41,021 nt of DNA from Alphaproteobacteria bacterium. GTDB taxonomy: Bacteria; Pseudomonadota; Alphaproteobacteria; Sphingomonadales; Kordiimonadaceae. The stretch's first letter is position 1; every line of letters begins with the position of its first letter. The stretch lies in assembly GCA_021774775.1 (NCBI GenBank), contig JAJFIT010000168.1:1-41021 (forward strand), written 5' to 3'. Below are positions 2,900-28,543 of this stretch, piece after piece. The translations under genes were made by a program, and so were the position numbers. Under the pieces are notes generated by a model, which was not told where the DNA came from, searched no databases, and saw nothing but the letters and a program-made list of their open reading frames with translations.

Positions 2900-2926
2900 T
2901 ATACCGCACATCAAGTGGAGGCCTGT

Positions 2927-3544
2927 TTGAAGCCGCAAATTTTATTCAGGAAAGTTCACCATTGGGGCTCCATTTTTGTGGCACTGCCGCTGATGCTTAT
3001 GATCGGTGCAGGCATTTTTCTAATGCTGAAAAAAGAAATTACCTGGATTCAGCCGCAGACAATTGAAGGCAGCCAGACCGGCGTGCCCTTGCTTACCGTT
3101 GCGCAGATGTTTGAAGCGGCGAAGAAGGCCTCTGAGGCTGGTTTTGCCAGTTGGGATGACTTGGACAGACTTGATTTCAAGCCTGGCAAAGGCGTGGCGA
3201 AATTTGTTGGCCACAACAACTGGGAAGTGCAGGTAGATACCCACACGGGTGAGCTATTGCAGGTGTCCTTCCGGCGTTCAGATATTATCGAAAGCCTTCA
3301 CGATGGCAGCTTTTTCAGCGATGGCATCAAATTATATTTGTTTTTACCGGCGGGAATTGGATTGTTCATTCTCTGGTGTACCGGTCTGTATCTGTTTTTT
3401 CTGCCGCACCTTAAAAATCGCCAAAAGGCCCACCAGAAAAACAATCAGAAAAACCAACAAAAAACTCTGACAACCCAAAAGAAAAAAAATCCGGGGACTG
3501 CCGCTGATGCAACGGTGAAGGGAGCCAGGCAACCAGCTGAATAA
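2927..3544 (+). CDS. PepSY-associated membrane protein
   Basis: This is a protein of about 205 aa with two membrane segments, one near residues 15-35 (IFVALPLMLMIGAGIFLML) and one near 135-160 (LPAGIGLFILWCTGLYLFF). The intervening periplasmic region includes VQVDTHTGELLQV, the usual PepSY signature. The tail is rich in Lys, Gln and Asn. TTG 2927 is preferred because GGAGG sits five bases upstream; GTG 2915 would place that site inside the gene. PepSY-TM proteins next to TonB receptors are often linked to iron-chelate reduction or handling. Here it follows the broken receptor by 27 bases and probably shared its transcript. The role in iron handling is inferred from context only. Confidence 0.7.
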   Translation: MKPQILFRKVHHWGSIFVALPLMLMIGAGIFLMLKKEITWIQPQTIEGSQTGVPLLTVAQMFEAAKKASEAGFASWDDLDRLDFKPGKGVAKFVGHNNWEVQVDTHTGELLQVSFRRSDIIESLHDGSFFSDGIKLYLFLPAGIGLFILWCTGLYLFFLPHLKNRQKAHQKNNQKNQQKTLTTQKKKNPGTAADATVKGARQPAE

Positions 3545-6600: not shown

Positions 6601-6767
6601 TGAATGCAGGCACAAAGCAGCGCTTTGAGGATGTGGCCGCTATTTTCCGTGAAGCTATGACAGCTCGTGACGCGGTAGTTACCGGCGAAATTTCAGCCTT
6701 TAACACGGCTTTCGCTGACAGTGGGCGTAGTGCAGTAACAGTGCCCAGTTTCTCAGGCACTGAATAA
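3615..6767 (+). CDS. Secreted Asp-box (BNR/Vps10-like) beta-propeller protein, paralogue 1
   Basis: A protein of 1050 aa with a clear signal peptide (KKITILLACTALTGG to PAFA before ETKEKD), so it acts outside the cytoplasm. After the conserved NIGPWRGGRVTTVAG come about ten Asp-box motifs of the form S/T-x-D-x-G-x-x-W: KTTNAGGDW, SRDAGKTW, KTTDGGKSW, RSVDGGETW, KSTNGGESW, KSVDGGKSF, KSTDRGVSW, VTRDGGTNW, KTTNYGKRW and VSFDDGDNW. That number fits a ten-bladed sortilin/Vps10-like propeller or a double propeller as in GH74. The C-terminal 300 residues hold an Ig-like strand region (APGTYTARLKAG) and a helical segment. The start has AAGGGG upstream. Such proteins are often annotated as glycosyl hydrolases, but I see no proven catalytic residues; protein or ligand binding is equally possible. 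It is the first of three tandem paralogues. Confidence 0.85.
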   Translation: MKLGKKITILLACTALTGGALITPAFAETKEKDYYVAPEYLDGLQYRNIGPWRGGRVTTVAGTTSDKRIYYMGATGGGVWKTTNAGGDWTNVSDKFFKTGSVGALAVAPSDPNIVVAGMGESPFRGVASSHGDGVYISRDAGKTWANAGLAGSRQISTVHIHPTDPDVIWVAVQGSPWAPTEERGVYKTTDGGKSWNKTLFVDTTTGIIDLTVDANNPRILYASSWDADREPWLIRSGGPGSAIWRSVDGGETWDKTGKGLPDEMGKIGVIASAAQSDLVWAIVEAKEKGGLYKSTNGGESWSFVNGDRRLHARSWYYMHIFADPQDENTVYVLNAPFMKSVDGGKSFQQISVPHGDTHDLWINPENTDVMINANDGGGTVSLDGTKSWSTIYNQPTAQIYRLNADNRFAYRLYGGQQDNSTVAILSRGPDGSIGLEDFHAVGGCESGFVGLDRDNPRYAYSGCYLGQIEEYDFETETERSVSAYPEISFGNAPKNRKYRFNWNAPIFVSLHDKSAIYHAGNKLLKSTDRGVSWSEVSPDLTRNDEATQGPGGAPITNEVSENYNTITYVAESMHEAGTMYAGSDDGLVHVTRDGGTNWENITPRGIGIALVNAIDVSPHDPATAYVAVTRYKENDHTPMIFKTTNYGKRWKQIASGIPDGDFVRVVREDTKRKGMLYAGTETGLYVSFDDGDNWQPMQSNLPHLPVTDIKVHGKDLLLSTQGRGFWILDDIAPLRQMTGDIDGALLFAPSTAFHVNTAGGRNGGPSSPNPTSGAVLYYSLGDVPDAGISLEILNGDGAVIRTLKSDPKKGEKGGGSGSAYNLPMKTGLNRAHWDLRVDALKKIDGLWSIAGGRDRKVDGYMVAPGTYTARLKAGDAVSEQSFTVEWDPRVDIDAALIVEQTDMARQSFQMLAELQQSVISMRKAKMQAKTQTEANSDVAALKAAGDAAVKAIEAWEKGLINTEREFFQDVLNWPDKLHSDLQFIMGNLDGGIPPVNAGTKQRFEDVAAIFREAMTARDAVVTGEISAFNTAFADSGRSAVTVPSFSGTE

Positions 6768-6783
6768 GAAAATTAATGGGGAT

Positions 6784-6805
6784 GGGGAGGCCGTTGCGCC
6801 TCCTC
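6784..6805 (+). other. RNA hairpin between propeller genes 1 and 2
   Basis: An 8-bp stem (6784-6791 with 6798-6805, one G-U pair) and a 6-base loop lie in the short gap between paralogues 1 and 2. There is no U-run, so it is more likely a processing, stability or translation element than a terminator. Its right arm contains CTCCT, which could pair instead with the AGGAG ribosome site at 6813-6817. Confidence 0.5.
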
Positions 6806-6823
6806 ACGATACAGGAGTGGGTA

Positions 6824-9800
6824 ATGAATAACATATTTAAAACAATGACATGTGTCGGTGCATTAATGCTGGGCGCAGGTGCAGCTCAGGCTGAAATTGA
6901 TAGCGACCTGATAGCAGGTATCAAGGCACGGGTAATCGGCCCTGCGGCCATGAGCGGCCGGGTGGCGGCCATCGATGCGGTGGTCTCCGACCCCAATCAT
7001 ATTGTGGTGGGCGCGGCAACGGGCGGCGTGTGGATTTCATCTAACGGCGGCCTGAACTGGACACCTACTTTTGACGGCGAAGAATGTGCTTCTATCGGCT
7101 CTGTCGCGATCAATCAAAGCAATCCGGACATTGTCTGGGTTGGCACCGGCGAGGGCAACACCCGTAATTCCACTTCCATTGGCTGCGGCATGTTCAAGTC
7201 GCTGGACGGCGGGAAAACCTGGAACAAGGTTGGCTTAGAGAATAGCGAACGGATTAATCGCATTGCATTGCACCCAACCAACCCTGATGTGGCTTATGCG
7301 GCTGTGCTGGGCAAACTGTGGGGCGATAGCGACGAGCGCGGTCTGTATAAAACCATAGACGGTGGCAAAAGCTGGAACGTTGTTCTGGCGGGCGATGAAA
7401 CCACAGGCGCAACTGACGTGCAGATGGACCCAGGCAATCCCAACAAATTGTTTGCCTCCATGTGGCAGTTTCGCCGCTGGCCGTTTTTCTTCAAGTCGGG
7501 CGGTGAAGGTTCAGGCTTGTTTGTCTCTCATGATGGCGGCGACAATTGGAATGAACTAACAGAAGAAGACGGCTTGCCAAAAGGTATTCTTGGTAAGTCA
7601 GCCTTCACCATATCGCGCAGCGACCCGAACCGGGTTTACGCCCTCATCGAGGCCGAAAAAAGCGCGCTTGCGCGTTCTGACGATGGTGGCCGCTCATGGA
7701 AAATTGTCAACACGGACAATGACATTAATGACCGGCCCTTTTATTATAACGGTATTTCCGTCGATCCGCAGAACCCGGACCGGGTCTACCGGGTTGGCTC
7801 GCGGGTGAAAATGTCTATCGATGGCGGCAAGACCTTCTCGTTTATCGAAAAAATACGTTGCTGCGCCCCCAGAAACGATATCCATATCGACAATCATGCC
7901 TGGTGGATTAATCCCACCAATCCAAAGCATATCATCGACGGTAACGACGGCGGACTGGGCGTTACCCAGGACGGCGGTCAAACATGGCGATTTGTTGCCA
8001 ACCTGCCGTTGGCGCAGTTTTACCACATCGCGGTCGATAACGACCTGCCGTATAATGTATATGGTGGCCTTCAGGACAACGGTGCCTGGCGCGGGCCGTC
8101 TGCTGTTTTTGAAAACGGCGGCATTCGCAACCTGCATTGGCAGGAAGTGGCGTTCGGAGACGGTTTTGATACCATCCCGCACCCTGAAAACAGCCGCAAA
8201 GGCATTTCCATGAGCCAGGGCGGTTTTTTGGTTAGCTGGAACCTGGATACGGGCGAACAACGCCTGATACGCCCCAAGGGCCCCGATGATGGCACGGAAT
8301 TGCGGTTTAACTGGAATGCGGGTTTTGCGCAAAGCCCAACCGATGCGGATACCATGTATTACGGTAGCCAGTTTGTTCATAAATCGACCGACCGAGGTCT
8401 GACATGGCAAATTATCAGCGGAGACATGACAACCAATAATCCCGAGTTTCAAACATTCCGCGAAAGTGGTGGTATCACTCCTGATGTAACTGCAGCGGAG
8501 AATTACACCAGCATAACGTCTATTAACCCGTCCCCGGTTGACGACAGCGTAATTTGGGTAGGGACCGACGATGGCCGAGTGCATGTAACCCGCGATGGTG
8601 GTGCCACTTGGGACAGCGTCGAAGATAATATCAGGCGTGGCCCCGAGGGTGGCTGGATTCCGATGATTGAGCCATCACTTTATGATGCCTCAGTTGCTTT
8701 CATCGCCGTTGACGATCACAGGCGGGGTGACAACAAACCTTATGTTTACCGCATGGAAAATTACGGCAAGCGCTGGCGCTCGTTAGTGACCGATGACATC
8801 ACTGGCTATGCGCTGTCGGTTCGCCAGGACCATGTGGATGAAAATTTGCTGTTTGTTGGTACCGAATTTGGTCTTCATTTCAGCTCCAACGGCGGCAAGG
8901 ACTGGACCAAATGGGCGGATGATGTGCCGACGGTTTCGGTGATGGATATGGCAATCCAAAAGCGTGAAAATGACTTGGTTTTGGGCACGCACGGTCGGTC
9001 AGCTTATGTGATTGACGACTATAGTGCGTTGCGCGGCTTGAGCGACGACAGCTTCAAGGAGCCGCTTAAAATTCTGTCTGTAACCCGCGGCCAGCAATAT
9101 ACCGCAAGCCAAACACCGTCCACGCGTTTTCCGGGCGACGGTGAGTTTCGGTCAGCCAACCAGCCTTACGGTGCCATGATTACCTTCATGGCCTCAGGCG
9201 ACGACCTGAAACATCCTGACAGCGACGAACAAAAGGCCAGAATGGTCGCCAAGCGCGCGGCGCAAGGCGATGATGCGGAAAAAGACGACGACAAGAAAAA
9301 ACCGTCAGACAAGGCATCGGCGGGCAAAGCAACGATTAAAATTGCCGATGTATCAGGTGAAACCATTCGCACATTTAAGGCCGATGTTCATCAGGGTATC
9401 AACCGTGTGGTTTGGAATATGCGCCAGGACGGTTTTCAGGCCGCACCTCCGGCGCAGCCAAACAAAGATGGCACGCTGCCCGCTGGTTTGGAGGTTCTTC
9501 CGGGTTCCTACAGCGTAACGGTTGAGCTGGGCGACAATTCGTCCAGCCATGAAGTACAGGTTCTCGTTGATCCGCGGACTGAGTTTAGCGCTGAGGACCA
9601 GATGAAAAACTTTAGAATGCGCAGCCATATCGCCGGGTTGAACCAGCGTGTGCAACATGCCCTGACGCGCCTGATGCATACACGCCGGGACATTGACACC
9701 CTGACGGCGCTGGTCAAATCGTCTGATGCTGATGAAGACACGCAGAAACAGCTCTCCAAACAGGCAGGGGACGCCAGGAAAGCCCTTGAGGAAATGGAAA

Positions 9801-10081
9801 AACAATTCCGGGTGCCACGCGATACACGGGGTATTGTTTTCCGGGGCGGTAATGCCAGTGCAATCATTGGTTTGGCCGGTGCTTACGTGGGCAGTTCACG
9901 CGGCGCACCCAATGAAGCTGCGTTGCAGCAGGTTGGCAAGGCCGAAGCCGCAGTTGACAGCTCAGTTGCTGCGCTCAACAAGCTTCTCAGCGAAGATGTG
10001 GCGGCGCTGCGTGTTGCGGCAGGCGAGGCTGGCATTGGTCTTTTGAACCAAATGCCGCTTGAGCAAGCGGATACTGAATAG
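6824..10081 (+). CDS. Secreted Asp-box (BNR/Vps10-like) beta-propeller protein, paralogue 2
   Basis: ATG 6824 is chosen because AGGAG at 6813-6817 lies six bases upstream and a signal peptide follows directly (MNNIFKTMTCVGALMLGAG to AQA before EIDSD); the longer in-frame start at 6776 would hide it. The mature protein of about 1065 aa starts with VIGPAAMSGRVAAID, matching its paralogues, and has about eleven Asp-box motifs, for example KSLDGGKTW, KTIDGGKSW, VSHDGGDNW, RSDDGGRSW, VTQDGGQTW, KSTDRGLTW and VTRDGGATW. A charged Lys/Asp-rich linker near residues 815-840 precedes the C-terminal Ig-like (LPGSYSVTVELG) and helical regions. Function is unknown beyond a secreted propeller; it is probably co-transcribed with its neighbours, 56 bases after paralogue 1. 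Confidence 0.85.
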   Translation: MNNIFKTMTCVGALMLGAGAAQAEIDSDLIAGIKARVIGPAAMSGRVAAIDAVVSDPNHIVVGAATGGVWISSNGGLNWTPTFDGEECASIGSVAINQSNPDIVWVGTGEGNTRNSTSIGCGMFKSLDGGKTWNKVGLENSERINRIALHPTNPDVAYAAVLGKLWGDSDERGLYKTIDGGKSWNVVLAGDETTGATDVQMDPGNPNKLFASMWQFRRWPFFFKSGGEGSGLFVSHDGGDNWNELTEEDGLPKGILGKSAFTISRSDPNRVYALIEAEKSALARSDDGGRSWKIVNTDNDINDRPFYYNGISVDPQNPDRVYRVGSRVKMSIDGGKTFSFIEKIRCCAPRNDIHIDNHAWWINPTNPKHIIDGNDGGLGVTQDGGQTWRFVANLPLAQFYHIAVDNDLPYNVYGGLQDNGAWRGPSAVFENGGIRNLHWQEVAFGDGFDTIPHPENSRKGISMSQGGFLVSWNLDTGEQRLIRPKGPDDGTELRFNWNAGFAQSPTDADTMYYGSQFVHKSTDRGLTWQIISGDMTTNNPEFQTFRESGGITPDVTAAENYTSITSINPSPVDDSVIWVGTDDGRVHVTRDGGATWDSVEDNIRRGPEGGWIPMIEPSLYDASVAFIAVDDHRRGDNKPYVYRMENYGKRWRSLVTDDITGYALSVRQDHVDENLLFVGTEFGLHFSSNGGKDWTKWADDVPTVSVMDMAIQKRENDLVLGTHGRSAYVIDDYSALRGLSDDSFKEPLKILSVTRGQQYTASQTPSTRFPGDGEFRSANQPYGAMITFMASGDDLKHPDSDEQKARMVAKRAAQGDDAEKDDDKKKPSDKASAGKATIKIADVSGETIRTFKADVHQGINRVVWNMRQDGFQAAPPAQPNKDGTLPAGLEVLPGSYSVTVELGDNSSSHEVQVLVDPRTEFSAEDQMKNFRMRSHIAGLNQRVQHALTRLMHTRRDIDTLTALVKSSDADEDTQKQLSKQAGDARKALEEMEKQFRVPRDTRGIVFRGGNASAIIGLAGAYVGSSRGAPNEAALQQVGKAEAAVDSSVAALNKLLSEDVAALRVAAGEAGIGLLNQMPLEQADTE

Positions 10082-10086
10082 ACAAT

Positions 10087-10116
10087 ACGGCTTCGGCTCT
10101 GATGGGCCGAAGCCGT
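10087..10116 (+). other. Perfect 11-bp hairpin between propeller genes 2 and 3
   Basis: The arms at 10087-10097 and 10106-10116 (ACGGCTTCGGC and its exact complement) enclose an 8-base loop, immediately after the stop of paralogue 2. It is GC-rich but lacks a following U-run, so a 3'-end protector, attenuator or Rho-linked terminator is more likely than a classical intrinsic terminator. Confidence 0.6.
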
Positions 10117-10146
10117 CTCAATAAACAGGGCACAAAGGGCGAAATT

Positions 10147-13100
10147 ATGAAGCACACAAAATTATTGGACGCGGCAAAGATCGCGGGACTGAGCGCAGTT
10201 ATGGCTATTGGCATGCTGGGGCATCCAGCAACCGCAGCCGACGAAAACCCGTTTGCGGCGCTGAAACTTCGCACAATCGGCCCGGCGCTTACATCCGGCC
10301 GAGTGTCGGATTTCGCCTTCCACAAGGGGTCCCCGCAGTCGTTCTATTTGGCGACAGCTTCCGGGAATTTGTGGAAAACCAGCAACAACGGTACCACTTG
10401 GCAGGCTCTTTTTGAAAAAGAAGGCTCTTTCGCCATCGGTTCGGTGGTTATTGACCCAAGTAACCCCGAAACCGTTTGGGTTGGTACCGGCGAGAATAAC
10501 GCCCAGCGCTCGGTCGCAAATGGCGATGGGATATACAAGTCCGTTGACGGCGGAACGAGCTGGACCAACATGGGCCTGAAGGATTCGGGCCATATTAGCC
10601 AGATTTGGGTCGACCCAAAAGATAGCAATACTGTGCTTGTTGCATCACAAGGGCCGCTTTGGAATGCGGGCGGCGATCGCGGGCTTTATAAAACCACCGA
10701 CGGCGGCAAAAGCTGGAACCGTATTCTGAAGATCGACGAACATACCGGCGTTAACGAATTTGTTGTTGACCCGCGCGACAGCAATAATGTTGTTGTATCG
10801 ACATATCAGCGCCGCCGGCATGTTTGGGTGTTGATTAACGGTGGTCCCGGCAGCGGCATTCAACGTACAACCGACGGCGGTGCCAGCTGGCAAAAGGTGA
10901 CGACCGGCCTGCCATCGAAAGATGATATGGGCCGCATTGGCCTTGCGGGTGCACCGTCTGCACCGGAAACCATTTATGCGATTATTGAGGCCAGCAATGC
11001 CGAGCGCGGCGTATACCGGTCGGATAACTTCGGTATTTCATGGGGCAAGCAATCGGGTCACATGACCACCAGCCCGCAATATTACAACGAGCTTATGGTT
11101 GACCCCAACAACGCCGAACGTGTCTATTCGATGGATACTTTCACCAATGTGTCTGATGACGGCGGCAAAAACTGGCAGCGATTGTCTTCAAAGTTCCGGC
11201 ATGTGGATGACCACGCCATGTGGATCGACCCCGGCAACAGCAAGCATATGTATATCGGCGGTGACGGTGGTGCCTATGAAAGCTGGGACATGGGCACAAC
11301 ATGGAGGCAAATTAGAAACTTGCCGATCACACAGTTTTACCGCATTCAGCCCGACAATGCAGAGCCGTTTTATAACGTTTGCGGTGGAACCCAGGACAAT
11401 AATTCACTGTGTGCCCCGTCGCGTACCCTGGATATGCACGGTGTGGGCAACGAAGACTGGACAATTATTCTGGGCGGTGACGGTTACGAGCCGCAAATCG
11501 ACCCGACCGATCCCAATATAATCTATACCCAATACCAGTATGGTGGCCTGGCCCGCTATGATCGCCGCACGGGCGAGCGGGTTTATATCGCACCGCAAAC
11601 AGGTTCTGGCGAAAACGCGCCAAAGTGGAACTGGAACACACCGCTGGTTATCAGTCCGCATAATTCAAAACGCATTTATTATGCGTCCGAGCGGGTGTAC
11701 CGTTCAGATGACCGCGGCGATAACTGGACTACGATCAGCCCCGATCTGACCCAGAAAATAGACCGCAATACGCTTGAAGTTATGGGGCGTGTCTGGAGCG
11801 TAGATGCAATTGCGAAAAACGATTCAACCTCTAAATACGGCAGCATCATTGGCTTTAGCGAAAGTACCATCACGCCGGGTCTGTTGTATGTAGGCTCTGA
11901 TGATGGATTGATCAGTGTGTCTGAGGACGGCGGAGACAACTGGCGCTCGGTGAACAGCTTCCGCGGCGTGCCGGACATGTCATTGGTGGAGGATGTACAG
12001 GCATCCATGCACGACGAAAATGTCGCTTATGCTGCAATCGACAACCACAAGCGCGGCGATTACAAGCCCTATCTGCTTAAAACTACCAACAAGGGCAAAA
12101 GCTGGCGTTTGATCAGTGGTAACCTGCCGGAAAGAGGTTCGGTTCATACAGTCGTTGAAGACCATGTGGACCCGAACCTGTTGTTCGTAGGCACGGAATA
12201 CGGCCTGTTTTTTACCCAGGACGGCGGCGAGAACTGGCACCAGATGAAAGCCGGTTTCCCGACAATAGCGGTTCGTGATGTTGAAATTCAGCGCCGCGAG
12301 AATGATCTGGTGGTCGGCACATTTGGCCGCGGTGTCTATATTTTGGATGACTATTCACCGCTCAGAAGTGCTGCTGCAGACGTTGCGGCTGCTCGCGCCA
12401 CATTGTTCCCGGTTAAAAACGCATGGCTGTATATTGAAGGCGACCAATACGGCAATGAACTGAAAGGAAGCCAGGGAGACGCATATTACGCCGCTGAAAA
12501 CCCGCCGTTTGGTGCTGTGTTTACCTATTATTTGAACCAGTCTTACCTGCCGCAGTCAGATACGCGCCGTAAGGTCGAACGTGAAACTGAAAAGACTGGC
12601 GGCGATACGCCTTATCCGTCATGGGATGTGCTGCGCGCCGAAGACAACGAAGAAGCGCCGAAGGTGTTCATGACCATCAGTGATCGTGCCGGGAGTGTTG
12701 TGCGCCGCCTTGGGGTTAACCATACAGAAGGCCTGCATCGGGCTGCATGGGACCTGCGCCTGGACGCGCCGCAAAAGATAAGTTTGGCAAGTTCGTCAGG
12801 CTATAGCCCACCGTGGGTACGTGCACCATACGGTCCACTGGCTTTGCCTGGTGACTATACGGCATCGTTGTCTGTACGCCAAAACGGGCAGGTTACCCAA
12901 TTGGGAACAGTACAGTCTTTCACCGTCAAGCCGCTGAACAACAGTCCCGAGATCACGGGTGACCGGGAAGCATTGCTAGCGTTCCAGCAGAAAACCGCCG
13001 ACTTGCGGCGTGCTGTTGACGGGGCCAATGGTGTTATCGGCGAAATGCGGTCGCGCATCAGTCACCTGAATGCGGCATTGGTTCGTACCAGTGCATCAAC

Positions 13101-13434
13101 AGAAGTACAGAAACAAACACTGAACGCAATCAACACTGAGCTTCGCATCGTCAAAACGATGATGAACGGTGACCGGACCGTTGGGTCGCGCAACGAAGCC
13201 ACGCCTATGTCTATTTCGGGCAGGGTTGGCTCTATCATGTTCAGTCATTGGCGGTCACAGGCACCGGTTACCGGCGGTAACCAGAATGCATACGAGATTG
13301 CGGCCAACGAGTTTGCCGTTGCACTGGATCGGTTGCGCAGCATTGATCAGCGCTTGCATGCGTTTGAGCAGGAACTTGATCAGGCCGGGGCACCGTGGAC
13401 ACCGGGCCGGGTGCCAACCTGGAAGCCCGAATAG
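10147..13434 (+). CDS. Secreted Asp-box (BNR/Vps10-like) beta-propeller protein, paralogue 3
   Basis: ATG 10147 follows an AAAGGGCG ribosome site and opens a signal peptide (MKHTKLLDAAKIAGLSAVM to PATA before ADENP); the upstream ATG at 10102 falls inside a hairpin and is unlikely. The protein is 1095 aa. After TIGPALTSGRVSDF there are about eleven Asp boxes, including KTSNNGTTW, KSVDGGTSW, KTTDGGKSW, RTTDGGASW, VSDDGGKNW, RSDDRGDNW, VSEDGGDNW, KTTNKGKSW and FTQDGGENW. The C-terminus again has an Ig-like strand region (LPGDYTASLSVRQNG) and a helical part. The three paralogues keep the same architecture but are clearly diverged, so the triplication is old. Binding or hydrolysis of a polysaccharide or protein is possible; nothing in the sequence decides. 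Confidence 0.85.
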   Translation: MKHTKLLDAAKIAGLSAVMAIGMLGHPATAADENPFAALKLRTIGPALTSGRVSDFAFHKGSPQSFYLATASGNLWKTSNNGTTWQALFEKEGSFAIGSVVIDPSNPETVWVGTGENNAQRSVANGDGIYKSVDGGTSWTNMGLKDSGHISQIWVDPKDSNTVLVASQGPLWNAGGDRGLYKTTDGGKSWNRILKIDEHTGVNEFVVDPRDSNNVVVSTYQRRRHVWVLINGGPGSGIQRTTDGGASWQKVTTGLPSKDDMGRIGLAGAPSAPETIYAIIEASNAERGVYRSDNFGISWGKQSGHMTTSPQYYNELMVDPNNAERVYSMDTFTNVSDDGGKNWQRLSSKFRHVDDHAMWIDPGNSKHMYIGGDGGAYESWDMGTTWRQIRNLPITQFYRIQPDNAEPFYNVCGGTQDNNSLCAPSRTLDMHGVGNEDWTIILGGDGYEPQIDPTDPNIIYTQYQYGGLARYDRRTGERVYIAPQTGSGENAPKWNWNTPLVISPHNSKRIYYASERVYRSDDRGDNWTTISPDLTQKIDRNTLEVMGRVWSVDAIAKNDSTSKYGSIIGFSESTITPGLLYVGSDDGLISVSEDGGDNWRSVNSFRGVPDMSLVEDVQASMHDENVAYAAIDNHKRGDYKPYLLKTTNKGKSWRLISGNLPERGSVHTVVEDHVDPNLLFVGTEYGLFFTQDGGENWHQMKAGFPTIAVRDVEIQRRENDLVVGTFGRGVYILDDYSPLRSAAADVAAARATLFPVKNAWLYIEGDQYGNELKGSQGDAYYAAENPPFGAVFTYYLNQSYLPQSDTRRKVERETEKTGGDTPYPSWDVLRAEDNEEAPKVFMTISDRAGSVVRRLGVNHTEGLHRAAWDLRLDAPQKISLASSSGYSPPWVRAPYGPLALPGDYTASLSVRQNGQVTQLGTVQSFTVKPLNNSPEITGDREALLAFQQKTADLRRAVDGANGVIGEMRSRISHLNAALVRTSASTEVQKQTLNAINTELRIVKTMMNGDRTVGSRNEATPMSISGRVGSIMFSHWRSQAPVTGGNQNAYEIAANEFAVALDRLRSIDQRLHAFEQELDQAGAPWTPGRVPTWKPE

Positions 13435-20787: not shown

Positions 20788-20889
20788 TCCAATTCAAGGT
20801 TAACGAGCAAACGATAATCCCCCCGAGAAATCGGTGTCGCTAGCTCAAAAAATTACACCGCAAACGCGGCAAATATGAAGGTATTTAAC

Positions 20890-21495
20890 ATGGCTATCAT
20901 GACTGAAATTCAGAATTCACAAGTTGTTCGCGCTTACCGTCAGGGCTGGCTCGCATGGCTCGGTGCTCACAAAACTGCTTTTGATTACGCTCAGGATGGT
21001 GTTAGCAAGCTGGTAAATGGCCGCGAAGAATTGGTTGAAGAACTTGTTCAAAAAGGCGAAGAAGTTGAAGGCATGGCGCAGGGTAACATCGACAAGGTTC
21101 GCGGTTACGTAGAGCCTCGCATCAACGAAGCAACGGCTCGTTTCAACGAAGTTAGCGAAAAAGTTTCCGACGTTCGCAACAAAGTAATCAGCCGCGTATC
21201 TGCTGAATCAACTGACCGCGTTGAAGAGCTGTCTGCTGAAGTTGCCAAGCTTGCTAAATCAGTGACTGCACTGAGCCGCAAAGTTAACACTGTTGCAAAG
21301 CCAGCTGCAAAAAAGGCTGCTGTTAAGCGCCCGGTCGTAAAAACAACAGGCGCAAAAACAACAGTTGCAAAAAAAGTAGTCGCAAAGAAGCCAGTAGCTA
21401 AGAAAGCTGCACCTAAGGTTGCTGCGAAAACTGCCGCTAAAGCTGCTCCAGTTGTTGAAGCTCCTAAAGCTTCAGACACAAAAGCAGCAGCATAA
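20890..21495 (+). CDS. PhaF-like phasin with histone-like tail
   Basis: A 201-aa protein in three parts: a phasin domain (residues 1-75), a coiled-coil-like helix (about 75-135, with VSEKVSDVRNKV and VEELSAEVAKLAKSVTALS), and a tail (137-201) made of Ala-Lys-Pro-Val repeats such as KPAAKKAAVK and KKVVAKKPVAKKAA. In Pseudomonas putida, PhaF uses such a tail to bind DNA and tether PHA granules to the nucleoid; the same role is inferred here. ATG 20890 has AAGG eight bases upstream; the in-frame ATG 20875 would overlap that site. Three hairpins follow, the last an intrinsic terminator. Confidence 0.85.
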   Translation: MAIMTEIQNSQVVRAYRQGWLAWLGAHKTAFDYAQDGVSKLVNGREELVEELVQKGEEVEGMAQGNIDKVRGYVEPRINEATARFNEVSEKVSDVRNKVISRVSAESTDRVEELSAEVAKLAKSVTALSRKVNTVAKPAAKKAAVKRPVVKTTGAKTTVAKKVVAKKPVAKKAAPKVAAKTAAKAAPVVEAPKASDTKAAA

Positions 21496-21757: not shown

Positions 21758-23440
21758 ATGGCGCGCTCAAAGAAGTCCATCGGCGAAACGGCCGCTGAAA
21801 CAACCACCGCATTTAGCCCTATTGTCGGGGTACATCGCTCTGAATTGGTGAAGTCGCTTGGCGTTGTCTTGAAGCAAGCCGCACTCAACCCGGCCACTTT
21901 CGGGCAACATTTTCTCAGTTACGGCAAAGACATGGTCGATATCGTTAAAGGCGATTCCGAATATGCTCCCCACGCGAAAGACCGCCGCTTTCAAGACAAA
22001 GCCTGGACCTATAATCCTTTGTACCGTCGGGGCATGCAGTCGTGGATGGCAATGAAGGAAAACCTTAATAACTGGCTCGAAGACACCGAAATTGATGATG
22101 GTGATCGCGCGCGAGCGCATTTTATCCTTGAGACCGTTACTGATACCCTTGCGCCAACAAATACACTTGTTGGCAATCCTGCAGCGATGAAGCGCTTGTA
22201 TGAAACGGGCGGCAAATCGATCGTTGCTGGATTAAAAAATGCCTATGACGACATGGTTAACGGCATCGGTATCCCATCTCAAGTGGACGCGCGGCCTTTT
22301 AAAGTTGGCGAAAATCTGGCGACAACGCCGGGCTCAGTGGTTTTCAGGAACGAAGTTCTTGAAGTTATTCAGTACAAACCGTCAACCGACACGGTGTATG
22401 AAATACCGCTTATGGTGATCCCGCCGCAGATCAATAAATTTTATGCCTCTGACCTTACCCCAGACAAAAGCCTGTTCCGTTTTCTTGTGTCTCAAGGCAT
22501 TCAGCTATTCGCTATCAGCTGGCGCAACCCGGGTGTTGAACAAGCTCATTGGCACCTGGAGACATATATTGACGCGGCGATTGAGGCGATGGACGCGGTG
22601 ATGAAGGTCACGCGCTCCAAAAAAATCAATGTGTCTGGTGCATGCTCCGGCGGCATCACAACAGCAACTATTTTGAGCCACCTTGCGGCAATGGGCGATG
22701 ACCGTGTCAACAGCTCAACCTTTCAGGTTTGTGTGCTGGACCCGCGGCAGGAAGACAGTGAAGTTGGCGCGCTGGTGTCGGAACAGACATTGGAGATGGC
22801 GCGGACCAGATCAGCTCAAAAGGGAATTCTTTCGGGCGATGATCTTTCGAGAACTTTCGCATGGATGCGGCCAAATGATCTGATCTGGAATTACGTAGTA
22901 AATAATTACTTGCTGGGTGATGCGCCGCCAGCGTTTGACATTTTATTCTGGAACAATGACACAACAAACCTGCCCGCAGGGCTGCATTCGGATTTCCTGG
23001 ACAGCTATCTAACCGCGCCTTTTGCTAATCCTGGAACAGTTGACTTTAAAGGTAAAAAACTGGATTTGAGTAAAGTAGACCATGACAGCTACATTGTTGC
23101 CGGTGTGACCGATCACATTACGCCCTGGCGCGCCTGCTACAGGACCACAAAGCTGCTAGGCGGAAATAATGAGTTTGTCGTTTCAAACAGCGGCCATATT
23201 CAATCGCTGCTAAACCCACCCGGCAACCCCAAGGCTAAATATTTTTACAATCCGGCTAGTATGGATGGTAGCGCCGACGACTGGATGGCGGCAGCGGAAC
23301 TACGTGACGGTTCCTGGTGGACACCGTGGGCAGGATGGCTGAAGTCGCGTTCGGGTAAGGAAAAAGCCGCTCCGAGCCGGATGGGCAACACAAAATACAA
23401 GCCGCTGGCTGACGCGCCCGGCGAATATGTATTTGGATAA
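21758..23440 (+). CDS. phaC: Class II (medium-chain-length) PHA synthase
   Basis: A 560-aa enzyme that polymerises (R)-3-hydroxyacyl-CoA into polyhydroxyalkanoate on granules. The catalytic residues fall at the same positions as in Pseudomonas PhaC1: C296 in GACSGG, D452 in DHITPW and H480 in NSGHIQSLLNPP. The ACSGG box and the length mark class II rather than class I (G-x-C-x-G of another form, often longer) or the two-subunit classes III/IV. AAGGGG at 21745-21750 precedes the start. It heads a phaC-phaZ-phasin-phaD series, and only one synthase gene is present where Pseudomonas has two. Preference for C6-C14 monomers is inferred from the class. Confidence 0.96.
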   Translation: MARSKKSIGETAAETTTAFSPIVGVHRSELVKSLGVVLKQAALNPATFGQHFLSYGKDMVDIVKGDSEYAPHAKDRRFQDKAWTYNPLYRRGMQSWMAMKENLNNWLEDTEIDDGDRARAHFILETVTDTLAPTNTLVGNPAAMKRLYETGGKSIVAGLKNAYDDMVNGIGIPSQVDARPFKVGENLATTPGSVVFRNEVLEVIQYKPSTDTVYEIPLMVIPPQINKFYASDLTPDKSLFRFLVSQGIQLFAISWRNPGVEQAHWHLETYIDAAIEAMDAVMKVTRSKKINVSGACSGGITTATILSHLAAMGDDRVNSSTFQVCVLDPRQEDSEVGALVSEQTLEMARTRSAQKGILSGDDLSRTFAWMRPNDLIWNYVVNNYLLGDAPPAFDILFWNNDTTNLPAGLHSDFLDSYLTAPFANPGTVDFKGKKLDLSKVDHDSYIVAGVTDHITPWRACYRTTKLLGGNNEFVVSNSGHIQSLLNPPGNPKAKYFYNPASMDGSADDWMAAAELRDGSWWTPWAGWLKSRSGKEKAAPSRMGNTKYKPLADAPGEYVFG

Positions 23441-23556
23441 GTGTCAATCAGCCTTATCTGAATACAATGGGACGATATCCTCGTATGAGTGTGGGACTCA
23501 GGGGAGGACTCTGCAGGCGGATGTAACGCGCCAGTTGATTACGGGAGAGAGTGAAA

Positions 23557-24399
23557 ATGGCGACTATTCAGCCAGATATCCAATTGCTCGACGTTGGTGG
23601 GCAAAAGCTGCGTACCGCGGTATGGCGCGGTAAGGGCACGGCGCGCCCGCTGTTGTTTTTCAACGGTATCGGCGCAAACCTGGAAATGGTTGCACCGCTG
23701 GGCGAGATGATGAGCGCGCGCTCAGACGTGATAGTCTTTGATATGCCAGGAACCGGTGGTTCACCTGCGGCAACAATACCCTATCGTCCGGGCAAAATTG
23801 GCAAATGGACGATGAACATACTGGACCAATTGGGATACGCCGACATTGATGTGATGGGTGTTTCATGGGGCGGCGCGGTAGCGCAGCAATTTGCACGTGA
23901 TTATCCTGATCGTGTTCGCTCGCTGGTGCTGCTGGCGACAAGTGCGGGTATGGTTATGGTGCCTGGCAATTTTAGCGCGCTTAGGCGTATGGCCAACCCC
24001 AAACGTTATACTGATCCAAGTTATATGTTGAAGAATTTCGAGACCCTATACGGCGACGCGGCTGACCAACATGCGGTTAAGCACAAGAACCGGATCAAAG
24101 CGCCTTCAAAGCAGGGTTATGCCTATCAGTTGTTGGCAATGCTTGGCTGGACCAGCATATATTTCCTGCCGTTCTTGAAACAGCCCACGCTGATCATGTC
24201 CGGTGACCGCGATCATATCGTTCCGCTGGCCAATGCAAGAATATTAAAGGCGGCGATTCCCCGATCAGATTTAAAAATTGTCAAAGGCGGCGGCCATCTG
24301 TTTGCTGTTTCCAGGGCGCACCAAGTTGTTCCCATTATTTCGCGGTTCCTTGACGACCACGCCGACGATTATTTGGTGGGCGCGGCCTACTCCACGTGA
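23557..24399 (+). CDS. phaZ: Intracellular medium-chain-length PHA depolymerase
   Basis: A 280-aa alpha/beta hydrolase very like Pseudomonas PhaZ, which releases hydroxyacids from stored polymer. Motifs: LLFFNGIGANLEMV, the nucleophile S103 in GVSWGGAVAQQFARDYPDR, D219 in SGDRDHIVP and H247 in GGGHLFAV. The segments GMVMVPG and LGWTSIYFLPFLKQPTL also match that family. ATG 23557 is taken as the start with GGAGAG upstream; GTG 23551 is in frame and also possible. It lies 116 bases after phaC, as in Pseudomonas, so synthesis and mobilisation are encoded together. Confidence 0.94.
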   Translation: MATIQPDIQLLDVGGQKLRTAVWRGKGTARPLLFFNGIGANLEMVAPLGEMMSARSDVIVFDMPGTGGSPAATIPYRPGKIGKWTMNILDQLGYADIDVMGVSWGGAVAQQFARDYPDRVRSLVLLATSAGMVMVPGNFSALRRMANPKRYTDPSYMLKNFETLYGDAADQHAVKHKNRIKAPSKQGYAYQLLAMLGWTSIYFLPFLKQPTLIMSGDRDHIVPLANARILKAAIPRSDLKIVKGGGHLFAVSRAHQVVPIISRFLDDHADDYLVGAAYST

Positions 24400-24436: not shown

Positions 24437-24865
24437 ATGAGTGATAAATCGAAAAAAGACATGGATATTGCCCGGAAGATCTGGCTGGCGGGCATCGGTG
24501 CTTATGGCCGTGCTGTCGACGATGCAACAGAGGCATACGCCAAAGTAGGTAAGGAAACGACGAAGATATTCGAAGATTTGGTTGGCAAGGGCGCTGAACT
24601 TGAGGGAGCCGTGGCAACGGTTGCTAAAAGTGTAGTTCCTGAAATGACACAAAAGCACCGGGCCCAGGTGGAAGACCGCATGGAGCGCATGAAAGCAGCA
24701 CTTGGTATGGGTGAAGTTGCTGCAGACCAGCAGGAACATATTGAAAGTATCGAAGCTCGGTTGGACGTAATTGAGGAAAAAATCGACGCCGTTTTGGCGG
24801 CAGTTGTAAAACCAAAAGCCGCGCCGCGACGAGCCCGCGCCAAAAAACCCGCTGCAAAAAAATAA
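24437..24865 (+). CDS. PhaI/PhaF-family phasin with short basic tail
   Basis: A 142-aa protein with the phasin start IARKIWLAGIGAYGRAVDDA, typical of Pseudomonas PhaI/PhaF, then EDLVGKGAELEGAV. A helical segment (IESIEARLDVIEEKIDAVLAAV) should form a coiled coil, and the last 20 or so residues are basic (KPKAAPRRARAKKPAAKK). It should coat granules and may bind DNA weakly. AAAAGGAG gives a strong ribosome site. It lies 37 bases after phaZ, in the same operon. It is diverged from the tandem phasins at 20496-21495 and is not part of that duplication. Confidence 0.88.
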   Translation: MSDKSKKDMDIARKIWLAGIGAYGRAVDDATEAYAKVGKETTKIFEDLVGKGAELEGAVATVAKSVVPEMTQKHRAQVEDRMERMKAALGMGEVAADQQEHIESIEARLDVIEEKIDAVLAAVVKPKAAPRRARAKKPAAKK

Positions 24866-24930: not shown

Positions 24931-25572
24931 ATGAAAACCAAAGACAGGATTCTCCAGTATAGTCTGCAGCTCTTCAACGAGGAGGGCGAGCAAAATGTGA
25001 CACCTGTTGATATCGCCAATGTTCTGGAGATAAGCCCGGGCAATCTCTACTATCATTTTAAGGGCAAGGACCCGATCATCCACCAGCTGTTTGTGGATTT
25101 TGAAGAAGAATTCAAAATGGTGTTGAGCGCACCGATTACCAAACCACTGGAGCTGTCTGATAACTGGGTTTATTTTTACATTCTGTTCGAGGAAATTGCC
25201 GATTTTCGGTTTTTTTACCGTAACCTGCAGTCAATTCTGGAACGGTATCCTGATCTTGAGGGGCGCTTCAGGCGGCTGGTGAAACTCAAAATCAAGGCAA
25301 TGGCATCTATAATCAAAACTCTCAACGACACCGGGTTTATCGACATTTCAAACATTGAAGCAGGGCAAATGGCGGAACGTTTCGCGCTGCAACTGACTTA
25401 TTGGCCAACGTACCAAACCCTGCTGGATGCTGGTGTTTCAACGCCGGTTTCCATTCACCGCGGTGTTTTTGGCCTTATCAGCCAGCTGACACCTTATGTA
25501 GTTGAGGGTGCAGATGAATTTTTGGCGCTACTGACCCAATTCCGCGATAAAATGTTGAAAAACAGCGGCTGA
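24931..25572 (+). CDS. phaD: PhaD, TetR-family activator of the pha operon
   Basis: A 213-aa TetR protein. The N-terminal helix-turn-helix reads DIANVLEISPGNLYYHFKGKD, and the ligand-binding part contains WVYFYILFEEIADFRFFYRNL, as in Pseudomonas PhaD. In Pseudomonas putida PhaD activates pha transcription and senses an acyl-CoA-type ligand; the same is inferred from family and position at the end of the phaC-phaZ-phasin series. The start ATG has GGTGGG upstream. A phaC1/phaI-style operator is not obvious to me. Confidence 0.88.
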   Translation: MKTKDRILQYSLQLFNEEGEQNVTPVDIANVLEISPGNLYYHFKGKDPIIHQLFVDFEEEFKMVLSAPITKPLELSDNWVYFYILFEEIADFRFFYRNLQSILERYPDLEGRFRRLVKLKIKAMASIIKTLNDTGFIDISNIEAGQMAERFALQLTYWPTYQTLLDAGVSTPVSIHRGVFGLISQLTPYVVEGADEFLALLTQFRDKMLKNSG

Positions 25573-25785: not shown

Positions 25786-26586
25786 GTGTTGAATTTGTCT
25801 GGAAGGGTAAAAGCGCCTTCACCAATCTTAATGATGATGGAAGGTAGAGCCCTTTTTGAATTAGGTGCTTTCGCAGCATCGTCAGCATTGTTTAAGCGAA
25901 TGCCACGGGGTGATGGTCATCCCGTTCTTGTGCTTCCCGGACTTGGTGCCTCTGATGGGTCAACTAAACCACTTCGGTCGTTTCTGGATGATCGTGGTTA
26001 TGCGCCGTACGGCTGGAACCAGGGCCGAAATTTGGGCCTGCGCGATGATACTCTGCAGGGCATGCTCGACCGAATTGACGAAATTTGGGGTATGCACCAA
26101 CAGAAAATCAGCCTGGTCGGCTGGAGCCTTGGCGGCATATATGCTCGCGAGCTGGCTAAAATGAGACCAGAGCAAGTCCGCTCGGTTATTACGCTCGGCA
26201 GTCCGCATTCGGGAAGTCCCAAGAACTCTAACGCCTGGCGCTTTTATGAGTTTGTTGCAGGTCACTCGGTAGAAAAGCCACCGATTGAAACCAGAATGCA
26301 CAAAGCGCCGCCGGTGCCGACCACATCAATCTACACAAAAACGGACGGTGTTGTTGCCTGGCAAAATTGTCACCAGGAGAAACCTGTTTGCAAGGTGAAA
26401 GCCAAGCAGACCGAAAATATCCGGGTTGCGGGCAGTCATTGTGGATTGGGCTTTAATCCAAGTGTTCTATATGTGGTTGCGGACCGCTTGGCGCAACGTG
26501 AAGGGAACTGGCGGCCATTTAGCAATGTTGGCTCAAGAAAAGCATTTTTCCGCACACCGGGCCTTGATGCGGTTGTGCCTTCCTAA
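25786..26586 (+). CDS. Alpha/beta hydrolase (lipase/esterase-like)
   Basis: A 266-aa hydrolase without a signal peptide. After HPVLVLPGLGASDGST come the nucleophile box GWSLGG, then TLGSPHSGSP, a likely acid in KTDGVV and the histidine in GSHCGLGFNP. Similar proteins are found beside wax ester synthase/DGAT genes in several bacteria, which matches the next gene, so action on neutral lipids or acyl esters is inferred. GTG 25786 has AGGAGA five bases upstream; ATG 25784 is out of frame and stops at once. An intrinsic terminator follows, so this and the acyltransferase are separate units. Confidence 0.82.
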   Translation: MLNLSGRVKAPSPILMMMEGRALFELGAFAASSALFKRMPRGDGHPVLVLPGLGASDGSTKPLRSFLDDRGYAPYGWNQGRNLGLRDDTLQGMLDRIDEIWGMHQQKISLVGWSLGGIYARELAKMRPEQVRSVITLGSPHSGSPKNSNAWRFYEFVAGHSVEKPPIETRMHKAPPVPTTSIYTKTDGVVAWQNCHQEKPVCKVKAKQTENIRVAGSHCGLGFNPSVLYVVADRLAQREGNWRPFSNVGSRKAFFRTPGLDAVVPS

Positions 26587-26620
26587 CGGTATTTTAACGA
26601 AAAAATCGCAGATATTATGA

Positions 26621-26649
26621 AAAGAAGGCCTGTATGGGCCTTCTTTTTT
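26621..26649 (+). terminator. Intrinsic terminator after the lipase-like gene
   Basis: A 10-bp perfect stem (26621-26630 with 26637-26646), a 6-base loop and a T-run to 26649. Confidence 0.92.
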
Positions 26650-26828: not shown

Positions 26829-28508
26829 ATGCATAAACTTACAGGAATGGACGCAACTTTTCTTTATATGGAGACTGATGAAACACCGATGCATGTTTCG
26901 GGCTTGCTGATCTGTGAACCTCCTGAAGAAGGTGTAAATCCCTATGAGGCGTTGAAGTCGCAGATCGCCGCGCGAGCGCATGAGATTCCTTCATTCCACC
27001 GCAAGCTGATGCCAACACCCTTTTATGTAGATCACCCCGTTTGGGTAACGGCAGAAACCGTTGATCTTGATTATCATATTAAACACGCCCGTTTGCCTGC
27101 CCCCGGAAACGTGGAGCAGCTGCGTGAAATTATTCAGGGCCTGCATTCGCTGACGCTCGACCGTGATCGCCCACTGTGGCAGTTTTATATCATCGAGGGC
27201 GTGGAGGATGCGGCCTTTGGCTTGAAAAAGGGCAGCTTCGCCCTCTATACCAAAAGCCACCATGCCAGCATTGATGGCGGTGCAGGCATTGCTGTGCTGG
27301 ATATTATATCTGACCGTGAGCCAACGCCGCGGCCACCACTGCCGAAAAACAAGATTCGCCTTTATGCAGAAAAACCGGGAGCGTTTGAACTTCTCGGCAG
27401 TTCATATGGGCGCTTCTTGCAGCAGCAGGTTGATTTTGTAAAATCCGTGCCTGATTTGGTTAAGGCCGCTGGCAGCTTCGCCAAAGTTGCGTCCGAAGAT
27501 ATAAGCGCGGTTATGAAAAACATGAAGCCTGCGCCCAAAACCCGGTTTAATGTTCGTATTCAGAAGCAGCGGGCGTACGGTGCCCAGTCATTGATGCTGG
27601 CAGACGTTATTGCGCTGGCAAAACGGACCAGCACAACGCTTAACGACGTTGTTTTGTCTATTTGCGGCGGAGCGCTCCGGCGGTATCTGGAAACCCACAA
27701 GGAACTACCTGAAGAATCGCTAGTTGCAGCGGTGCCGGTCTCTCTGCGGGAATTGGGCGACGCCTCCAATACCAACCAGGTTGCCGGTATGACCTGCGGT
27801 TTGGCGACCGATATTGCTGACCCGATTAAACGCTTGCGTGCAGTCAATGAGAACGCCAAGGGTGCGAAGAAGCAGCTGGCGACGGTTAAAGATATTTTCC
27901 CGACGGATTATTCTTTCTTTGGCGCGCCTATTCTTGTGTCTGCTATGGCACAGCTTACCAGTCGCACAGATATCGTGAATTACATGCCGTCGCCGATTAA
28001 TGTTACGATTTCCAATGTGCCCGGTCCGCGGCGCCATGTGTATTTCGCAGGCAGCAGGGTTGTGGCGAATTTCCCGGTGTCCATCGCGACCCATGGCTGC
28101 GCCCTGAATATTACGTTACAGAGTTATGTTGACCGCCTTGATTTTGGCTTGATTGCCTGCAAAATTGCTGTTCCGGATGTACAAGACATCGCAGACTATA
28201 TCGTTGAAGAGTTTGAAATTTTGCAAAAAGCCGCTGAAAAGCTTCCTATGCCAGCGGCGAAGGCAAAAACGTCATCCGTCAAGGCATCAACGGCAAAAGC
28301 AGCTGCCGCCCAAAAAGCAGCTGCGCCCAGCAAGCTGTCGCCTGCTACGACACCTGTAAAACCGGTGGCCGCAGCGCCCGCAAAATCACCCGTAAAGAAG
28401 GCAGTTGTTAAAAAGACAGCTGCAAGCAAAGCAAACGGCAAGAAACCCGCGGTTCGCAAAGCAACTATCCGCAAGGCAACATTGACCTCGCGCGGGCCTA
28501 AAGCCTAA
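26829..28508 (+). CDS. Wax ester synthase/diacylglycerol acyltransferase with a histone-like tail
   Basis: A 559-aa WS/DGAT enzyme, which makes wax esters or triacylglycerol from acyl-CoA and an alcohol or diacylglycerol at the membrane or lipid body. The catalytic motif is HHASIDG at residues 144-150. Other family motifs are MDATFLYMET at the start, LDRDRPLWQFYIIEG, and PSPINVTISNVPGP followed by NITLQSYVDRLDFG. Normal enzymes end near residue 470; here about 85 residues of Ala/Lys/Pro/Thr-rich sequence follow (SSVKASTAKAAAAQKAA, KSPVKKAVVKKTAA), like the tail of the PhaF phasin at 20890. AGGGGA precedes the start. The tail is unusual for the family and may bind DNA or granules. Confidence 0.93.
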   Translation: MHKLTGMDATFLYMETDETPMHVSGLLICEPPEEGVNPYEALKSQIAARAHEIPSFHRKLMPTPFYVDHPVWVTAETVDLDYHIKHARLPAPGNVEQLREIIQGLHSLTLDRDRPLWQFYIIEGVEDAAFGLKKGSFALYTKSHHASIDGGAGIAVLDIISDREPTPRPPLPKNKIRLYAEKPGAFELLGSSYGRFLQQQVDFVKSVPDLVKAAGSFAKVASEDISAVMKNMKPAPKTRFNVRIQKQRAYGAQSLMLADVIALAKRTSTTLNDVVLSICGGALRRYLETHKELPEESLVAAVPVSLRELGDASNTNQVAGMTCGLATDIADPIKRLRAVNENAKGAKKQLATVKDIFPTDYSFFGAPILVSAMAQLTSRTDIVNYMPSPINVTISNVPGPRRHVYFAGSRVVANFPVSIATHGCALNITLQSYVDRLDFGLIACKIAVPDVQDIADYIVEEFEILQKAAEKLPMPAAKAKTSSVKASTAKAAAAQKAAAPSKLSPATTPVKPVAAAPAKSPVKKAVVKKTAASKANGKKPAVRKATIRKATLTSRGPKA

Positions 28509-28519
28509 TCGAGTGATTT

Positions 28520-28543
28520 CGCCGCGAAGTAGCGGCGTTTTTT
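28520..28543 (+). terminator. Intrinsic terminator after the wax ester synthase
   Basis: CGCCGC (28520-28525), a 6-base loop, GCGGCG (28532-28537) and six T (28538-28543). Confidence 0.9.

Follow-up and report, generated by a model that had tools for sequence, protein, structure and literature searches.

A predicted disordered, lysine-rich tail recurs on alphaproteobacterial wax ester synthase/diacylglycerol acyltransferases and may tether nascent lipid bodies to the nucleoid

The window analysed here is a whole 41,021-nucleotide stretch of alphaproteobacterial DNA from a Kordiimonas-like genome, in which the gene order phasin, phaC, phaZ, second phasin, TetR, alpha/beta hydrolase leads up to the gene of a wax ester synthase / diacylglycerol acyltransferase (WS/DGAT). 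Downstream of the latter lie a TetR gene on the opposite strand and then an HlyD/AcrB-type efflux pair. The features that concern us are the following.

20875..21495, + strand: PhaF-like phasin with a 66-residue Ala-Lys-Pro tail (18 K+R, 2 D/E); phasin domain match below the curated cut-off
21758..23440, + strand: PHA synthase PhaC; PhaC_N match passes its cut-off, the highest-scoring subfamily model (class II) stays under its own
23551..24399, + strand: PHA depolymerase PhaZ; TIGR02240 above cut-off
24437..24865, + strand: second, small phasin of 142 aa with a short basic end; PF05597 at 46.5 bits versus a cut-off of 28.8
24931..25572, + strand: TetR-family regulator in place of PhaD, the PhaD assignment coming from position only
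25786..26586, + strand: alpha/beta hydrolase (PGAP1/LCAT/lipase-like), the constant upstream neighbour of WS/DGAT
26619..26648, + strand: terminator-like hairpin between the hydrolase and WS/DGAT genes (consensus scan)
26829..28238, + strand: WS/DGAT catalytic core, residues 1-470 (TIGR02946, PF03007, PF06974, active-site motif, PDB relatives)
28239..28505, + strand: basic Ala-Lys-Pro tail, WS/DGAT residues 471-559, predicted disordered (composition; pLDDT; basic tails in the orthologues L033-L037)
28520..28537, + strand: terminator-like hairpin and T run, starting 12 bases past the WS/DGAT stop (consensus scan)

Both phasins of the cluster end in basic stretches and so provide a local parallel to the WS/DGAT tail; a longer ORF on the opposite strand, probably spurious, overlaps the gene of the second. 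The alpha/beta hydrolase accompanies WS/DGAT more constantly than the pha genes do: it lies directly upstream in 20 of the 22 Kordiimonas-type loci (the other two begin at a contig edge) and directly downstream in L054 and L055. Elsewhere in the window (3615-13434), three consecutive ORFs of 1050, 1101 and 1110 aa all match Sortilin-Vps10 and BNR-repeat families and are, by these matches, a tandem set of beta-propeller-type proteins. The consensus scan returned 12 terminator-like sites in the stretch scanned, against 4.6 expected, and the hairpins on both sides of the WS/DGAT gene suggest that it is a separate transcription unit; the same stretch gave no sigma-70-type promoter.

The WS/DGAT ORF (26829-28508, + strand) starts with ATG and encodes 559 aa. 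Residues 4-469 match TIGR02946 over the full model (1-453 of 453) with 438.1 bits, well above the cut-off of 309.95, and the Pfam domains WS_DGAT_cat (PF03007) and WS_DGAT_C (PF06974) cover residues 4-275 and 316-465. The HHASIDG sequence at residues 144-150 corresponds to HHxxxDG, which we take to be the catalytic motif of the family, and H144, H145, D149 and G150 are invariant in 21 aligned sequences. By its full-length model match and its motif the protein is thus assigned to the WS/DGAT family, with triacylglycerol or wax ester synthesis as the predicted activity. It is not a phasin, since a Pfam search of the protein gave no match to the PF05597 phasin domain. The core carries a net charge of -3 (pI 6.5). 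Its PDB relatives 6chj and 7nxg, with chains of 455 and 463 residues, align to query residues 4-461 and 4-467, and because these chains end near query 461 and 467, the fold does not need the tail.

The tail differs sharply from this core. Its 89 residues include 19 K, 3 R, 25 A and 10 P with no D/E and no F/W/Y, which gives a net charge of +22 and a pI of 12; at the core's own residue frequencies, the probability of finding no D/E is 2.7e-5 and that of at least 22 K+R is 1.1e-4. In an AlphaFold2 model built with 19 aligned relatives, which is moderately confident as a whole (mean pLDDT 59.3), the last core helix ends at residue 470 and this C-terminal helix passes directly into the tail, which is coil with pLDDT below 50 over residues 478-520 and 522-559. 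The PAKKA motif has no exact copy in the window tail and is present in one of 20 Kordiimonas-type tails. Judged by its composition, dominated by A, K and P, and by the model, the tail is a PhaF/H1-like basic extension that is predicted to be disordered. The original prediction had described a PhaF-like basic tail of about 85 residues past the normal end of the enzyme, and we can confirm it at 89 residues past the TIGR02946 match.

The closest intact orthologue, L033, shares 92% core identity with the window protein and has a shorter but clearly homologous tail in which 30 of the 37 last residues are identical to those of the window; the window tail is therefore not a local sequencing error. 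These two proteins and L034-L037 form a six-member clade (support 100 on the tree) with 58-99 residues after position 466 and a net charge of +11 to +22 in this region, and an NGKK motif stands at the matching place in the tails of the window and L034-L037. Over all orthologues the tails span 20-99 residues after position 466. All 20 of the Kordiimonas-type proteins whose C-terminus could be used have a net positive tail (+3 to +22), and in ten of them it is also lysine-rich by the strict criterion given below; several of the tails that fail it are just 20-33 residues long. In L044 (96% core identity) the tail breaks near 1130-1292 into poly-glycine and a stretch of unknown residues, probably an assembly fault in repetitive tail DNA.

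Sequence and length of the tail change fast. In the closest pair the proportion of nonsynonymous differences (pN) is 0.16 in the tail versus 0.05 in the core, and many-residue indels alter the length of the tail between close orthologues. The two closest pairs, window/L033 and L034/L035, differ in their tails by 30 replacements, of which only 3 alter charge; for single-base nonsynonymous changes placed at random in the window tail the expectation is 38% (P = 0.0007, with replacements treated as independent and two pairs only). Replacements altering charge in the cores of the same pairs (8/36 and 11/54) likewise fall below 38%, so that the test indicates charge conservation and not a tail-specific effect. 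The other pairs of the clade differ by 9-27 charge-altering tail replacements each, as letters and length of the tail drift with distance. We dropped dN/dS because, with pS at 0.67-0.88 in every comparison except one, synonymous sites have nearly saturated. An origin of the tail by copying from the tail of the neighbouring phasin was also rejected: the DNA similarity between the two is weak (best 34 bases at 76%, E = 0.002), and therefore like composition suffices as an explanation.

To score the tail across the family, we called it strictly lysine-rich when a 30-residue stretch after position 466 held 6 or more K, 8 or more K+R, no more than 2 D/E and no more than 3 F/W/Y/L/I/M/C. Loci came from two overlapping searches, with identical proteins merged first and several WS/DGATs per genome possible, and the 12 plasmid records were hand-picked from 40 listed. 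From the 157 alignment rows we left out 10 that are fragments, run off a contig, have a broken frame or are misassembled (L044, L048, L049, L053, two of L175, L032, L110 and two of L180); L027, L156 and L158 have no match to the window core and enter no count. In two Caballeronia plasmid records, L179 (1914-4075) and L175 (6001-7609), the gene before WS/DGAT is annotated as a phasin family or hypothetical protein, and the WS/DGAT match of L175 is split in two pieces with only the second part annotated.

The original prediction had proposed a search of homologues for basic tails; such tails are present on the close orthologues L033-L037, and a strict tail is carried by 47 of 147 distinct WS/DGATs. 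These comprise 43 of the 105 alphaproteobacterial enzymes and 4 of the 35 gamma/beta ones, with none among the seven actinobacterial enzymes, which are from plasmid records. Within the Alphaproteobacteria the strict tail is present in 10/20 Kordiimonas-type proteins, 13/17 others of the order and 20/68 of the remainder, and F+W+Y make up no more than 0.7% of the basic tails in the three groups. With 100 of the 147 enzymes having no strict tail and the solved chains being short, the tail is probably dispensable for catalysis.

As background we scored the last 60 residues of mechanically called ORFs (longest non-overlapping ORFs, without a gene finder) in samples of 220-400 kb taken from three related genomes. 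Five of 791 ORFs have a strict tail: two WS/DGATs, a phasin, a DEAD-box helicase and topoisomerase I, which leaves 3 of 789 outside the WS/DGAT family. A Fisher test of 47/147 WS/DGATs against the 3 positive and 786 negative ORFs gives P = 2e-37, relatedness not being allowed for; in the WS/DGATs the whole tail was scanned, and 43 of 147 still have a strict tail when only its first 60 residues are considered.

A first criterion based on K+R, with no lysine minimum, had given 50 positive WS/DGATs out of 147. With it, 1/179 background ORFs were positive in G027, 3/316 in G018 (whose phasin and WS/DGAT account for two of the three), 20/296 in G068 and 6/191 among ORFs flanking WS/DGAT genes; it was replaced by the minimum of six lysines in 30 residues because many of the G068 positives look like shadow ORFs of a GC-rich genome. 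Five of the six flanking ORFs also look, in our judgement, like shadow ORFs. The sixth, L135 1-1041, is a patatin-like lipase that lies near the WS/DGAT gene of the alphaproteobacterium G337 and also has an Ala-Lys-Pro tail; a lipid-body lipase with a tail like that of WS/DGAT would fit the idea of a tether. An earlier criterion applied to the last 50 residues was positive for 1/179 ORFs in G027, 3/29 in the window and 13/229 in Kordiimonas-type loci, and all of the last 13 are either WS/DGATs or proteins at phasin positions. One of the window positives is a PepSY-TM protein (2915-3544) with a Gln/Lys-rich end and no evident granule role.

Sixty-nine WS/DGATs have a tail of 30 residues or more. 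Of these tails, 47 are strictly lysine-rich and 10 carry a net negative charge, which reaches -14, so that such extensions may in part be drift; acidic instead of basic C-terminal extensions are seen in L127 (net -14), L082 (-9) and L113 (-8). On a FastTree tree of the cores, with tail state scored by the first, looser criterion, the tail changes about 20 times, many of the branches being long. Enzymes with tails occur in two or more well-supported WS/DGAT groups that lie far apart on it, which argues for repeated gain or loss of tails. Collectively, these comparisons of sequence indicate that the basic tail is a recurrent feature of WS/DGAT and not a one-off fusion.

What might such a tail do? 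We propose that WS/DGAT would sit at the membrane and the surface of the nascent lipid body while making triacylglycerol or wax ester, and that its free tail would bind whichever polyanion is abundant and nearest in the cytoplasm. Chromosomal DNA is the most likely one, and it would be bound irrespective of sequence. As it grows, the lipid body would then be held and spread over the nucleoid, prevented from coalescing and shared between daughter cells. Because the tether would be part of the synthase polypeptide, every lipid body would be tethered from birth; PhaF and PhaM for PHA granules, AlgP for polyphosphate and MLDS for Rhodococcus lipid droplets would be analogues. By analogy with these systems, we tentatively favour the tail as a polyanion-binding tether, chiefly to the nucleoid, that positions nascent neutral-lipid bodies, and we put this at a little short of even. 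That DNA is what the tail binds, that positioning results from it and, indeed, that this organism makes lipid bodies is our inference. The other bearers of a strict tail speak for a tether, as they are a granule protein (the phasin) and two enzymes that act on nucleic acid, and together with the lack of aromatic residues they make us lean toward nucleic acid without deciding the matter; among the papers listed by literature searches of open-licence papers there were no DNA-binding data for any WS/DGAT tail. Also in favour of a tether are the H1/PhaF-like composition, the enrichment over background, the repeated changes on the tree, the charge kept in close pairs, the basic ends of both phasins of the cluster and the tailed enzymes of genomes with no PhaC match (see below). 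Against it stand the fast divergence of the tail, the many WS/DGATs with no strict tail, the net negative tails, the lack of an exact PAKKA and the positives of the early criterion in the window; anionic phospholipid, RNA and polyphosphate, moreover, are further possible ligands of basic tails.

Binding of anionic phospholipid is the main and a serious rival to a nucleoid tether. Here the tail would be an electrostatic anchor to the anionic inner membrane or to the phospholipid monolayer of the lipid body, keeping the active site on its lipid substrates with DNA uninvolved. WS/DGAT is an interfacial enzyme, and a tail of +22 on a core of -3 would strongly change its surface behaviour. Membrane effectors of the basic-aromatic type, however, contain aromatic residues, unlike the window tail, and the alphaproteobacterial basic tails as a group are similarly poor in them. 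The mycobacterial protein HBHA offers a precedent, as its Ala/Lys/Pro C-terminal domain is required for phosphoinositide binding and for lipid-inclusion formation (PMC6176652), but in the same protein positive charge alone is insufficient and the proper lysine-methylation pattern is required (PMC6176652). Furthermore, none of the seven actinobacterial enzymes in the comparison has a strict tail, and 31 of the 35 gamma/beta ones lack it too. On balance we consider a membrane anchor somewhat unlikely.

The tail could also bind RNA, ribosomes or polyphosphate, or only aid solubility or phase behaviour at the droplet, with no dedicated positioning role. Its fast divergence in sequence and length would agree with this reading, as would the basic tails on a DEAD-box helicase and topoisomerase I and the net negative charge of 10 of the 69 longer WS/DGAT tails. 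The strong enrichment on WS/DGAT (47/147 versus 3/789) and the charge kept in close pairs argue against it, and we judge this reading to be rather improbable.

We also considered whether the tail is tied to PHA, either by coupling neutral-lipid bodies to PHA granules or by placing WS/DGAT on the granule beside the AKP-tailed phasin. In the window's clade the enzyme adjoins the phasin-phaC-phaZ-phasin-TetR cluster, and among Kordiimonas-type loci the longer tails are found mostly where pha genes adjoin (window, L033-L037, L039); alphaproteobacterial WS/DGATs near PHA genes have been reported before, according to the available text of PMC10351704. A link of tail length to the PHA cluster was nevertheless rejected, as it is confounded with phylogeny and has exceptions: the PHA-linked orthologues L038 and G027/L009 have tails of 22 and 21 aa, the latter with phaC about 4.6 kb upstream, and the WS/DGATs L054 and L055 (Aestuariivita and a Sulfitobacter bin) adjoin phaC and phaZ yet have no basic tail. 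We then searched 45 genomes, a hand-chosen part of the WS/DGAT-bearing genomes found, for PhaC_N, taking absence as no PF07167 match at E <= 0.001. Six genomes, listed as 92-100% complete, gave no match (G022, G026, G106, G148, G150, G239), and all of these but G148 carry a strict-tailed WS/DGAT (L023, L030; L026; L065, L128; L076; L064, L131). With five of the six PhaC-less genomes tailed, it is the neutral-lipid enzyme and not PHA that the tail follows, and the PhaC-less genomes largely refute PHA coupling as a general explanation. Two tails of like charge would moreover repel, not bind. The suggestion in the original prediction that the tail might hold lipid bodies near PHA granules thus loses ground, and we regard it as very improbable.

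That the tail is a neutral, non-functional low-complexity extension from codon expansion near the stop is hardly credible: many-residue indels between close orthologues would fit, but the lack of any D/E in 89 residues (P = 2.7e-5), the charge-keeping replacements in close pairs, the 30 of 37 last residues shared with L033 and the recurrence in distant WS/DGAT clades all stand against it.

Returning to the nucleoid tether, a broader form of it, that Alphaproteobacteria repeatedly evolved self-tethering neutral-lipid synthases whose H1-like tail binds the lipid body to the nucleoid from nucleation, appears to us possible, if doubtful. The original prediction knew of no described WS/DGAT with this role, in agreement with our literature searches of open-licence papers (titles and abstract openings of the papers listed), in which no description of a lysine-rich tail on WS/DGAT was found. 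In the available parts of PMC10351704 the words "lysine" and "disordered" do not occur, and a term search of the available text of PMC4520822 was likewise without a match. The parts are each known, and their combination, the recurrence and the independence from PHA appear to be new. Placement and sharing-out of neutral-lipid bodies in bacteria seems to be little studied: the available text of a 2025 review of bacterial organelle positioning (PMC13052382) does not contain "lipid droplet", "triacylglycerol" or "wax". If the tether is real, a single polypeptide would join lipid synthesis to chromosome-guided inheritance. In Rhodococcus the tethering is left to a protein of its own, MLDS, and PHA producers use PhaF or PhaM for it. 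The tail would also be a simple, portable part with which engineered oil producers could keep their lipid bodies spread. Long- and short-tailed orthologues occur naturally in one clade, which makes the pattern directly testable.

Compared with known systems, the window protein shares its core, the HHxxxDG motif and the N- and C-terminal domains with the WS/DGAT family (TIGR02946; 6chj, 7nxg), and adds the 89-residue tail past the end of the model. In composition and predicted disorder this tail resembles the Ala/Lys/Pro-rich basic C-terminus of PhaF, and the cluster, with phasins, PhaC, PhaZ and a TetR gene in place of PhaD, resembles the PhaF system when set against the Pseudomonas pha gene order. 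The front halves differ: that of PhaF is a PHA-binding helix and that of the window protein is a lipid-synthesising enzyme with no phasin domain. In Pseudomonas putida the C-terminal region of PhaF is reported as disordered and lysine-rich with short repeats (PMC3574117), and the histone-like C-termini of PhaF and PhaM bind DNA or the nucleoid for PHA granules (PMC13052382). PhaM of Ralstonia eutropha comes close in having a nucleoid-binding C-terminus physically linked to a storage synthase (PMC13052382), and by analogy the window tail may bind DNA in the same way; PhaM, however, is a separate protein that complexes with PhaC, whereas the window tail is part of the synthase polypeptide. HBHA has a comparable Ala/Lys/Pro domain with a part in lipid-inclusion formation, but it is an adhesin and not an enzyme, and its phosphoinositide binding depends on methylation (PMC6176652). 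MLDS of Rhodococcus jostii RHA1 is not the synthase either, and it has four PAKKA motifs (PMC5504291) versus no exact one in the window tail; the actinobacterial WS/DGATs compared have no strict tail (0/7). Like the window enzyme, if the latter resides on lipid bodies as we infer, MLDS is a neutral-lipid-body protein with a lysine-rich C-terminus, which binds DNA sequence-nonspecifically and loses this binding when its lysines are changed to glutamate (PMC5504291), and by analogy it is the best precedent for DNA binding by the WS/DGAT tail.
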